Shown here: positions 24,105 through 29,163 of the stretch, piece by piece
How positions within the stretch are numbered: the stretch's first letter is position 1
Layout of the letters: the number at the start of each line of letters is the position of its first letter
From: Blastocatellia bacterium
GTDB taxonomy: Bacteria > Acidobacteriota > Blastocatellia > HR10 > J050
Length of the DNA: 64,000 bases
Assembly (NCBI GenBank): GCA_026985075.1
Contig: JALSQX010000033.1
Span: 186,001-250,000, forward strand
Direction of reading: 5' to 3'
Notes under the pieces: generated by a model
Told to the model about the DNA's origin: nothing
What the model saw: the letters and a program-made list of their open reading frames with translations, nothing else
The model's database searches: none
Program-made: the position numbers and the translations under genes

Positions 24105-24752
24105 TCACTTGAAGACCTTCTCCCAGTCTCTGAGAAATCGCTCCAGTCCGATGTCCGTCAGAGGATGGTTGACCAATTGCTGGAGCACCTTGAAGGGCAT
24201 GGTGGCAATATCGGCACCAATCAAGGCCCCCTCGACGACATGCATCGGATGTCGCACGCTGCCGATGAGAATTTGCGTGGAGAAGTCGTAGTTATCGAAG
24301 ATCTGGCGAATCTGTTCGATCAGCGCCATTCCTTGGTGACTGATATCATCGAGCCGCCCGACAAATGGACTGACCACCGTCGCTCCGGCTTTGGCGGCCA
24401 GCAGCGCTTGGGGGGCCGTGAAGATGAGCGTGGTATTGATCTTGATGCCCTCATCGGAGAGAATCCGAATCGCCTTGAGGCCATCCACCGTGCAAGGGAT
24501 CTTGACCATCACCTGAGGATGAATTTGGGCAATCTCCCGGGCTTCGCGGAGCATTCCTTCGGTATCAGTGGCGACGACTTCCGCGCTCACCGGGCCATCG
24601 ACGATGGTACAAATCGTGCGAATATGTTCCTTGAAATCCACTTTCCCCTCTCGCGCCATCAGCGTGGGATTGGTGGTCACCCCATCGATGGCCCCCCAGG
24701 ACGCGGCTTCGCGAATTTCATCGAGATTGGCCGTGTCGAGAAAGAATTTCAT
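24105..24752 (-). CDS. tal: Small transaldolase / fructose-6-phosphate aldolase family
   Basis: A 215-residue class I aldolase of the short transaldolase (TalC/FSA) group. The Schiff-base lysine is K84 in VMVKIPCT. The start [15 protein letters not shown] and the segment [15 protein letters not shown] are diagnostic, as is [15 protein letters not shown]. Such proteins transfer dihydroxyacetone units in the pentose-phosphate pathway; some act as fructose-6-phosphate aldolases. The ATG at 24752 follows GGGAGGAGC. Upstream lies a strong terminator-like hairpin at 24942-24978. Confidence 0.94.
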
Positions 24753-24941
24753 AGATGCTCCTCCCATTCTCTGCAGAGTTACACGCTCCCCACCTCACTA
24801 AGGTGAACTCAATGATACCGGAGCAGACCAGAGAGGTCAACGCGCTGCTCTCCAACCCCGAAATCAGCTCGCGGCGATGACGACCGCATCAGCATCGCCT
24901 CCCACATCATCCCGCCTCCTCGTTCGATGCGCTCTGACAAA

Positions 24942-24978
24942 AAGGGCCGTGCCCCCACGCGGCTGGGACACGACCCTT
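24942..24978 (-). terminator. Strong rho-independent terminator upstream of transaldolase
   Basis: On the minus strand AAGGGTCGTG pairs with CACGGCCCTT (one G-T wobble), with an inner CCCA/TGGG stem, followed by TTTTTG. It is about 190 bases before the transaldolase ATG, so it ends some transcript that starts in the non-coding region to its right. Confidence 0.75.
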
Positions 24979-25090
24979 ACTCTCATCAACCCTCAATTCC
25001 CTCCCCAGTGGAAGGGCGCAGATTGACCCTACCTCTCTCCTCCGAGAGAGACAGGGAGTTGCTGACCGGCTTTCATGACATTTGACCCAT
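24979..25090 (-). ncRNA. Candidate structured leader RNA, riboswitch-like
   Basis: Read on the minus strand, GTCATGAAAGCC then GGTCAGCAACTCCC is followed by a perfect 7-bp hairpin (CTCTCTC, GGAG loop, GAGAGAG) and GTAGGGTCAATC, then GGGTTGATGAGAG before the terminator. The order AUGA, CCGG..GCAAC, hairpin, GGG-with-CAAU, closing UGAUGA is reminiscent of the core of the SAM-I/SAM-IV riboswitch clan. The match is from memory and not a covariance test. The next gene on this strand is transaldolase, which would be an unusual target. Confidence 0.3.
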
Positions 25091-25468
25091 CCATTTTTGA
25101 GAATACCAATGCTGATCCATAATCTAATTGTTCATCTCCCGTTATCTTACTTGGCCGGAGCCCGTTTGTAAAATTGTTTCTATTTGGCGCGTAATTAATT
25201 AAATTAATGGATCATCTGAATCCCTCTCGGAATCCGGGGACTTCGTGGAAACCGAAGCGATGAGCGTCGTCCTCTGTGGGCTGCGCTCTGGCGATCGGCC
25301 GTTGATCGCCCTGGAGAGGCCTCGTAAAAAGGCCTGAGCACACGCTCTCCACAGGCTCCGTACCACGATGACAACTCGAGGGGGCGACGACCTCATTTGA
25401 TGACCGCACGCTGCGTGCCATCTTTTATGTACAGTCCCCGTTGAGTTTGCTAAAATGAGCGAGTTGAG

Positions 25469-27715
25469 ATGGCCGAAGGGAAGAACACACAGTTCCCCGC
25501 ATGGGTAGTCATTCTGGTCTTGTCGGCATTGCTCATCATCACCTTCAGCGTGCTGGTGATGATGGGCACGTTGAAGCTCATCCCCGAGCCACCCTACTCC
25601 CCGGAAGATCCGTTCGTGCTCTATGCGCTCACGGCTTTCAACTTCGTTGCCTTCTTCGTGTTCTCGTTCATTCTGGCCCGGTTACTGCTCCGACTGTGGC
25701 GCGAGCGGCGAGCGCACCGTCTCGGCTCCCGGCTGAAATCGCGCCTGGTGCGGTATTTCCTCGTCATTTCCATTCTCCCGCTCGTGGCACTGGGATTGTT
25801 CTCTTATCTGTTCATCAATGTGACCATCGATAAGTGGTTCGGCCAGCACCACCAAGCGGTTCTTCGCGACGCCGAGATCATGTACCGGGACTATCTCGAA
25901 GATGAAATCCGCGATTTTCACCAGCTCACCGAAGCCCTTCGAACGGCTCTGGAAACGCCTGATGGGGACCGAGCGGTGAGCGCGTCCCTCCCCCCGGAGA
26001 TCATCCAGAGCCCCGAGATGCTGTTATTAGAGGTCATCGGACAATCGGGCCAGAACATTTCACGCTTCGTCAAGGGAGAGGCCCCGGTCATTTCCCGGTT
26101 GACGCCGACGCTCAACCGAGCCCGCGCGGCCATTTCTGCGGGCAGAGCGTTCACCGAGCGGATGACCGGTCCGGGAAAAACCTTCCTTCTGGTGACTGCC
26201 GTTCCCTTCCAGACTCGCCGGGGAGGTCTTCTTGCCGTTTACCGATCCATCCCCGATCTGGCCGAACGGGCAGCTCACATCGCCTACCAGCACGAACTCT
26301 ATGAGAGCCTCTACCGGAAACAGGGGAAGATTCGACGAACTACGTTTCAGGTGCTCGCGGTGATCACTTTTCTTCTTCTGTTTGCCGCCACCTGGACGGC
26401 CATGCACCTGTCCAAAGGGATTACCCAACCCATTCAGGCGCTGGCCGAGGCAACGCAAAAAGTTGCTCGTGGAGACTTCGATCAACAAGTCACCTGTGTG
26501 GCCGAGGATGAACTCGCCATGCTCGTCGACTCATTCAACCGCATGACCGCCCAACTGAAAGAGAACCGGGAGCAGCTCGAAGCTTCGGCAAAGAGATTGC
26601 GGGAGACGAACCGGCGGTTGGAAGAGCGCCGCCGATACATCGAAACCGTGCTGGAAAGTCTCTCAACGGGAATCATCTCCATCGATTCTGAGCATCGCAT
26701 CACCACGCTCAACCGCGCGGCTATGCGTATCCTGGGTCTCACTGAACCACCCCCCAATCAAACGAGCATCACTGAGAGCCTCTCGCCGCTTCTCGGGCAA
26801 AACAACATGAAAGTGATCGAGCACCTCTTTGGGAAGGCGCACCGGACGGGGTTCGCTGCCGGAGATATCGAACTGGAGGGGTCCATGGGCGCTTCTCATC
26901 TGGTCATCAGCGCCTCTGCCCTCCGCGATGAACACGATCACCTGCACGGATTCGTCCTCATGATCGAGGATATCACTGAATTGGTGCGGGCGCAGCGACA
27001 AGCGGTCTGGAGCGAGGTGGCGCGGCGCATGGCCCACGAGATCAAAAATCCCCTCACCCCCATTCAACTCTCCGCCGAGCGGATCTCCAGGAACCTGGAA
27101 CGAGCCGACAGATCACTGGCGTCGTCGCGCTATAAGCAGCTCATCCGGGAGTGCACCGAAACGATCATGAGCGAAGTGCAGACGCTCCAGCGCATGGTCA
27201 ATGAGTTCGCCCGATTCGCCCGCCTGCCTCGAGCCGAACTGGAGGATCGCTCATTGAATGACATCGTCCTGGCGACGATCAAGCTCTATGAAGATCGACT
27301 CGACGATGTCCTCATCGAATCCACGCTCTCGGCCGATCTCCCTCTGGTGAAGCTCGATGCCGAACAGATCAAGCGGGCGCTGGTCAACCTTCTGGACAAT
27401 GCCTTGGCAGCCGTTCGGCAGGTGACGGGCCAACGGCGAATCACAGTGGAAACGCGATACTGTGGCGACCGGGAGATGGTCGAGTTGATCGTGTCCGATA
27501 CGGGCGTGGGCATCGACCCCAAAGATTATCCGCGACTGTTCACCCCGTACTTCTCCAAGCGGGCGCACGGGACGGGACTGGGCTTGGCTATCGTCAACCA
27601 TATCATTGCTGAACACCGGGGGCGCGTCCGCGCCGAGCCCAATCGCCCACGTGGAGCCCGCTTCATCATCGAACTCCCTACGAGCCGCGATGCGGAGTTC
27701 CGGGCCGTGGGATGA
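25469..27715 (+). CDS. NtrY-type membrane sensor histidine kinase
   Basis: A 748-residue kinase with the NtrY layout. Two N-terminal helices (about 12-35, 50-72), a third near 95-115, a large extracytoplasmic region and a fourth helix near 290-312 are followed by HAMP (about 315-370), a PAS domain (about 385-500), HisKA and HATPase. The phospho-acceptor is H523 in ARRMAHEIKNPLTPIQLSAER. The N-box is LVNLLDNALAAV and G-boxes are DTGVGIDPKDY and GTGLGLAIV. NtrY-type kinases signal nitrogen or redox state through NtrX. The stop overlaps a possible upstream start of the regulator gene, so the pair is probably co-transcribed. Confidence 0.93.
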   Translation: MAEGKNTQFPAWVVILVLSALLIITFSVLVMMGTLKLIPEPPYSPEDPFVLYALTAFNFVAFFVFSFILARLLLRLWRERRAHRLGSRLKSRLVRYFLVISILPLVALGLFSYLFINVTIDKWFGQHHQAVLRDAEIMYRDYLEDEIRDFHQLTEALRTALETPDGDRAVSASLPPEIIQSPEMLLLEVIGQSGQNISRFVKGEAPVISRLTPTLNRARAAISAGRAFTERMTGPGKTFLLVTAVPFQTRRGGLLAVYRSIPDLAERAAHIAYQHELYESLYRKQGKIRRTTFQVLAVITFLLLFAATWTAMHLSKGITQPIQALAEATQKVARGDFDQQVTCVAEDELAMLVDSFNRMTAQLKENREQLEASAKRLRETNRRLEERRRYIETVLESLSTGIISIDSEHRITTLNRAAMRILGLTEPPPNQTSITESLSPLLGQNNMKVIEHLFGKAHRTGFAAGDIELEGSMGASHLVISASALRDEHDHLHGFVLMIEDITELVRAQRQAVWSEVARRMAHEIKNPLTPIQLSAERISRNLERADRSLASSRYKQLIRECTETIMSEVQTLQRMVNEFARFARLPRAELEDRSLNDIVLATIKLYEDRLDDVLIESTLSADLPLVKLDAEQIKRALVNLLDNALAAVRQVTGQRRITVETRYCGDREMVELIVSDTGVGIDPKDYPRLFTPYFSKRAHGTGLGLAIVNHIIAEHRGRVRAEPNRPRGARFIIELPTSRDAEFRAVG

Positions 27716-27810
27716 AACCAGAGGAAGCGCAATGCAGAAAGAATCCATCGGGTTATCCCAAGAGCTATCCCTCTGCGAGGGACTGGTGCAGAGAGAGACC
27801 TGGTAGGCGT

Positions 27811-29163
27811 ATGGGGCATTCGGTTCTCATTGTCGACGACGAACAGGGAATCCGGAAATCGCTCATCGGCGTCCTGGAGGATGAAGGATTCACCGCCGAG
27901 GCGGTCGCCACGGGCGAGGCGTGCCTGGAAGCCTTTCATCGGCGCACGTATGATTGTGTCCTGCTGGATGTCTGGCTTCCCGGAATGAGCGGCATCGAAA
28001 CGCTCAAACGGCTGCGCGAATCGTATCCCTTTGTGGCCGTGGTCATGATCTCCGGGCACGGGACGATTGAGACGGCGGTGCAGGCGACGAAGCTGGGCGC
28101 CTTTGACTTCATCGAAAAGCCGCTCTCGGTCGAACGAACGCTGGTCACCGTTAAAAACGCTATCAAACAAAAAGCCTTGGAGCGAGAGGCGGCCGAACTG
28201 CGCCAACGGCTCCTGCGCGATTATCAGATGATCGGCGACAGCGTGCCGATGCGGGCCCTTCGTCAGCAAATCGCCATGGTAGCCTCCACAGAAGGGCGCG
28301 TCATCATCTATGGCGAATCGGGGACGGGGAAGGAACTGGTGGCTCGGGCCATCCACGCTCAGTCATCTCGGGCCGCCGGACCATTTGTTGAACTGAACTG
28401 CTCGGCCATCCCTGAAGAGCTCATCGAATCGGAGCTGTTCGGCCACGTGAAAGGGGCATTCACCGGGGCGTCAACATCCCGTCAAGGTAAGTTCGAGCTG
28501 GCCGATGGGGGCACGCTGTTTCTCGACGAGATCGGCGATATGAGCCTCAAAACCCAGGCCAAGATCCTCCGGGTGTTGGATGAAGGACGCATCCAGCCGG
28601 TGGGGAGTAACGCCTGGATTGAGGTCGATGCCCGGATCATCGCCGCCACCAACAAACCCCTTCACCAGATGATCGAACGGGGCGAATTCCGGGAAGATCT
28701 GTTCTATCGGTTGAACGTCATTCCCTTCTATGTCCCTCCGCTTCGCGAGCGGCGAGAGGATATCCCTCTGCTGGTGGACCACTTCAATCGCACCTTCTCG
28801 GCAGCCTATAATCGTCCCCCCAAGCAGTTCACCGAGGCAGCCATGGAGGCGCTACAGGAATACCACTGGCCGGGAAATGTCAGAGAACTGAAAAACACGA
28901 TCGAGCGGATTGTCATTATGCGATCAGCGCCCGTCATCGATGTCCCTGATCTCCCTCCGTTGAGCGGTGATCCGTTGCCGGATCCCCCCTCCAGCCTTTA
29001 TTATCGATCCTTCCAAGAGGCCACCGAGGCCTTCGAGCGGCAATATATCCAACGGAAACTGGCCGAGCATGGAGGAAACGTCACCCGGGCCGCTGAAGCC
29101 ATGGGCATTGATCGCAGTCACCTATACCGGCGAATGAAAGCGCTGGGCATTTCACCGAGATGA
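27811..29163 (+). CDS. NtrX-type sigma54-dependent response regulator
   Basis: A 450-residue regulator. The receiver has D9/D10 and phospho-acceptor D53 in LLDVWLPGMSG. The AAA+ domain has Walker A GESGTGKE at about 168, the sigma54-contact loop GAFTGA at 215-220, Walker B GGTLFLDEIGDM and the arginine-finger region REDLFYRLNV. The C-terminal Fis-type helix-turn-helix reads GGNVTRAAEAMGIDRSHLYRR. It activates sigma54 promoters when phosphorylated by the upstream kinase. I chose the ATG at 27811; a start at 27712 would add 33 non-conserved residues but would give a 4-base overlap with the kinase. Confidence 0.94.
   Translation: MGHSVLIVDDEQGIRKSLIGVLEDEGFTAEAVATGEACLEAFHRRTYDCVLLDVWLPGMSGIETLKRLRESYPFVAVVMISGHGTIETAVQATKLGAFDFIEKPLSVERTLVTVKNAIKQKALEREAAELRQRLLRDYQMIGDSVPMRALRQQIAMVASTEGRVIIYGESGTGKELVARAIHAQSSRAAGPFVELNCSAIPEELIESELFGHVKGAFTGASTSRQGKFELADGGTLFLDEIGDMSLKTQAKILRVLDEGRIQPVGSNAWIEVDARIIAATNKPLHQMIERGEFREDLFYRLNVIPFYVPPLRERREDIPLLVDHFNRTFSAAYNRPPKQFTEAAMEALQEYHWPGNVRELKNTIERIVIMRSAPVIDVPDLPPLSGDPLPDPPSSLYYRSFQEATEAFERQYIQRKLAEHGGNVTRAAEAMGIDRSHLYRRMKALGISPR

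Follow-up and report, generated by a model that had tools for sequence, protein, structure and literature searches.

The element described here lies within the window (the whole 64-kb stretch of DNA that was analyzed), in the gap between a gene of the transaldolase family (tal) and a divergent gene for an NtrY-like sensor kinase. The next gene downstream of the element on the same strand is tal. On the plus strand, positions 25469-29163 hold the kinase gene followed by that of a sigma-54 activator response regulator. A sequence-only reading of the region had described a conserved-looking core with a hairpin and a terminator. When checked against the sequence, all of the motifs named in that reading were found on the minus strand at the place given, in the order GTCATGA, GGTCAGCAAC, a perfect 7-bp hairpin, GGGTCAATC, TTGATGA and the terminator hairpin. 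The 7-bp hairpin (CTCTCTC/GAGAGAG) extends to 13 bp once G-U pairs are counted (25056-25027).

Features of the element and of the adjoining tal gene, in window positions. G001 is the second genome of the genus and G002 a genome of the same family.
Feature	Position	Strand	Basis and remarks
A-rich element 5' of the -35 box (candidate UP element or activator-binding site)	25173..25191	-	18/19 bases the same in G001
-35 hexamer TTTACA	25167..25172	-	Sequence, promoter scan; identical in G001
-10 hexamer TAAGAT, 17-bp spacer	25144..25149	-	Sequence, promoter scan; identical in G001
Predicted small RNA, ~200 nt	24939..25138	-	Promoter, terminator and conserved block; start placed from the -10 box
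P1 closing helix, 5' strand	25098..25105	-	Pairs with 24985-24978; pair probabilities 0.78-1.0 in both genomes
J1/2, mostly unpaired, near-invariant, candidate functional site	25057..25097	-	Folds, alignment
GTCATGA motif	25079-25073	-	Sequence
P2 hairpin, 13 bp	25027..25056	-	Folds
P3 helix, encloses P4	24986..25026	-	25026-25020 with 24992-24986; weaker in G001
P4 hairpin, within P3	24999..25016	-	Folds
P1 closing helix, 3' strand	24978..24985	-	Folds of both genomes
Intrinsic terminator hairpin and T5 tail	24939..24976	-	Sequence, RNA folds
Separate tal promoter TTGACC-17-TATCAT	24812..24840	-	Promoter scan; hexamers and spacing the same in G002
Transaldolase/fructose-6-phosphate aldolase family gene (tal)	24105..24752	-	Pfam PF00923, 225.9 bits; start taken as ATG 24752

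A sigma-70-type promoter (TTTACA-17-TAAGAT, 25172-25144) was detected upstream of the motifs, and the 801-bp region included four promoter-like sites compared to 0.6 expected. In G001, the one further genus member available for comparison, the hexamers and the 17-bp spacing of this promoter were kept, with 4 of the 17 spacer bases changed. The terminator was found to consist of a hairpin (24976-24944) folded at -25.0 kcal/mol and a short T-run of five T (24943-24939), and was retained in both genus genomes; it was visible in RNA folds only and was not flagged by a strict terminator scan. The strong terminator with a T-run in the sequence-only reading was thus upheld, except for its end, which had been set at 24942, three bases inside the T-run. 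As judged by sequence and conservation, the element has both the promoter and the terminator of its own that mark a stand-alone small RNA gene, a possibility raised in that reading, and together these predicted sites strongly indicate a separate transcription unit. Separately, a 24-base stretch covering the A-rich/-35 region was found repeated at 88% identity elsewhere in the same genome (L002, 1501-1560), and just 3' of this repeated -35-like stretch is a frame that we take, from its first residues, to be 2-isopropylmalate synthase-like.

The element was located in G001 at the same place and between the same two flanking genes, and is thus present in 2/2 genus genomes; in its own genome the RNA gene is single copy. 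A conserved block (25191-24936), composed of the promoter, then the structured body and then the intrinsic terminator, was 86% identical between the window and G001 (220/257 columns), in agreement with the conserved look first ascribed to the core. By contrast, the flanks of the block had diverged to 45% (94/209) and 48% (44/92) identity. Third codon positions were 74% identical for tal and 68.5% identical for the kinase (first 1200 bases); the block, at 86%, therefore evolves at a lower rate than these largely silent positions. An account without any functional RNA, in which the block is conserved regulatory DNA or a recently inserted element, would suit its confinement to one genus and the gap of ~367 nt, compared to 716 nt here, between the still neighboring tal and kinase genes of G002. 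We nevertheless consider this account very improbable, as the sequence is single copy, is more conserved than synonymous sites, carries promoter, body and terminator in order, and has a consensus fold that surpasses column shuffles, as detailed below.

RNA folding provided evidence for structure. The 202-nt transcript of the window folded at -79.2 kcal/mol (z -3.2), and none of 200 dinucleotide shuffles was as good, consistent with the structured RNA with its own terminator that had been proposed; for the G001 transcript the z was -3.1, with 3/200 shuffles as good. A 156-nt cut of core plus terminator was better than all shuffles (z -3.7) and cores gave z of -3.2 and -2.3, with a weaker result for a 124-nt cut without the terminator (z -1.7, 14/200 shuffles equal or better). 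Helices P1, P2 and P4 were common to the folds of both genomes, and P3 was firm in the window and almost tied with an alternative fold in G001. An alternative pairing of CAAC with GTTG cost ~4 kcal/mol in both genomes. The consensus fold energy was better than that of 500/500 column shuffles (z -3.9), a control that preserves columns and not dinucleotides. The base-pair changes by which the sequence-only reading had proposed to judge the fold gave a mixed outcome in this comparison of two sequences: 11 of the 35 consensus pairs were changed, with eight still pairing, three broken and no double changes. Compared to a substitution null, the number of pairs kept was not significant (P 0.11, two sequences). 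Since the two sequences hold no true compensatory changes, a conserved fold of the RNA body is plausible, not proven. As modeled, the body would be a closed multi-helix junction in which a 41-nt near-invariant segment is largely unpaired.

Coding capacity was also considered, as the 5' part of the RNA includes a 15-codon open frame on the minus strand (MDQHWYSQ..., 25073-25120). A small peptide gene or dual-function RNA, with the ATG at 25120 beginning MDQHWYSQKWMGQMS, would account for a start codon and first eight codons that are nearly conserved, both base changes being at third codon positions. This reading is hardly to be expected, however, given that a one-base indel alters frame and length between the two genomes, that no well-placed ribosome-binding site was seen by eye, and that conservation extends >100 nt past the stop in the window. 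Across both genomes no open frame was common throughout, and the sole candidate was the one broken by the one-base indel.

The distribution of the RNA was examined by several searches. By blastn against 98 relatives, only the two genus members were matched. With an E cutoff of 0.5, a covariance model built from the two sequences (R1; 35 pairs, two in the P3 set one column off) matched 5/162 genomes of the class. Those of the genus scored 160-164 bits; the three other matches (20.6-22 bits) were judged to be chance, their alignments breaking or skipping most helices. Within the order, 3/10 genomes were matched with the cutoff raised to E 10; the third match, of 18.7 bits, lay inside a 721-aa open frame with most helices broken or skipped, and was likewise judged to be chance. 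Among 396 genomes drawn from the phylum, a set with which the class set overlaps, R1 matched only the window's own genome, and plasmids and phages yielded no R1 match. The exact 17-base core pattern occurred in 43 stretches of genome_contigs and 7 of viral_contigs; when all 50 stretches and the window were scored with R1, a good match was obtained only for the G001 contig. The next best, a stretch from Arcicella (27.2 bits, E 0.00057), was rejected: P2-P4 were unaligned, the segment reads like a conserved coding segment, and its score was judged to be a pattern-selection effect. Distant relatives may have been missed by the wide searches, as these used strict filters or an exact pattern. The predicted RNA, known from 2/2 genus genomes, is most likely lineage-specific.

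Known RNA families were compared next. A scan of the whole window with Rfam 15 gave 0 matches above gathering score, and by this measure, which the sequence-only reading had itself suggested, the RNA falls outside Rfam. Weak matches to ceN58, whalefall-1, THF-II and U6atac in the window (10-16.4 bits), and to U6atac and RFPL3-AS1_1 in L007 (10.6-12.5 bits), were far below gathering scores and were discarded. Searches of an open-access library turned up no apparent description of this RNA. Acido-1 and Acido-Lenti-1 (RF01686, RF01687) are described as acidobacterial non-coding RNAs that are not cis-regulatory (PMC2864571). The RNA of the window shares their acidobacterial origin and matched neither family in the scans.

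6S and CsrB-like RNAs act as sponges. Like 6S RNA, which is ~190-200 nt and its own transcription unit, the element may be a free-standing RNA of this length, but the sole RF00013 match of the genome was on contig C40 (64.2 bits), with none at this locus. A sponge of CsrB/RsmZ type was likewise set aside, as CsrA was absent from the genome search (0 matches to PF02599). These results bear on a function in which the RNA binds a protein or small ligand and does not pair with a target RNA, as a sponge or stand-alone ligand sensor. We view such a function as doubtful: the compact fold and near-invariant junction would fit it, but the 6S RNA is encoded elsewhere, CsrA was not detected, and GGA motifs numbered only 6 per 200 nt in both genomes. 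That the RNA is the first known member of a new class of structured RNAs, its junction binding a ligand or protein in a stand-alone sensor with no downstream gene of its own, is decidedly unlikely.

The sequence-only reading had likened the core to the SAM-I/SAM-IV clan and its layout to a riboswitch controlling transaldolase. The likeness to SAM-I/SAM-IV riboswitches consists of the short motifs noted in that reading and a terminator after a junction. By contrast to those riboswitches, the element matched none of the SAM families at E values as high as 10, either in window positions 24800-25400 or in L007 1501-1800, and its downstream gene has its own promoter and belongs to the transaldolase family, not to the SAM/methionine genes that cis-control by SAM would call for. 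More broadly, a cis-acting leader (riboswitch or attenuator) that uses the terminator as a platform for controlled read-through into tal could be argued from a junction-like fold that holds a near-invariant unpaired segment and has a strong terminator after it, and from tal being the next same-strand gene. We judge it unlikely in light of several results. The tal promoter lies 100 bases downstream of the RNA terminator and is retained in G001 as well as in G002, where the gene pair is kept and R1 detected no copy of the RNA (best match 10.1 bits, within the kinase gene). No conserved antiterminator was found either: upstream RNA paired with the terminator arm at a level equalled by 120/200 shuffles in the window and by only 6/200 in G001. 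Because tal has its own promoter, G002 is without detectable RNA and Rfam gave no match, a SAM-like or tal riboswitch is disfavored. The element has the look of a common type of regulatory small RNA, not of a riboswitch for the neighboring gene. If transcribed, it would add an uncatalogued RNA gene to a little-studied lineage of acidobacteria and correct the tempting riboswitch reading of the region. With well-defined ends and a conserved unpaired segment, it should be easily testable given a culture or metatranscriptome. Lineage- and genus-restricted small RNAs are common, and its general weight is therefore modest.

The explanation we favor, with somewhat better than even confidence, is that this locus encodes a free-standing orphan small RNA of ~200 nt that would act in trans through its unpaired segment, possibly with Hfq. 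The RNA gene would have a sigma-70-type promoter and a terminator to itself, and the unpaired J1/2 segment of its transcript may pair with an RNA from another locus, with Hfq possibly assisting the pairing to this putative partner. Lying directly upstream of the kinase/response regulator pair, the small RNA could be open to control by them. It resembles orphan Hfq-type trans-acting small RNAs in its own promoter, length of ~200 nt, terminator, unpaired segment, single copy, lineage restriction and the presence of an Hfq gene in the genome, and differs from them in its short T5 tail and in that an 18-mer search found no target. In that search (≤3 mismatches), no near-complementary site was common to both genomes except the gene itself; other matches numbered three in G001 and one in G000, the same as for the reversed control (three and one). 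Pairing with the two neighbor genes was not above background. The Hfq gene of the genome was identified on contig C1 (90.6 bits), and weak additional Hfq-like matches were observed at L112 (contig C77, 28.6 bits) and L113 (contig C33, 26.3 bits).
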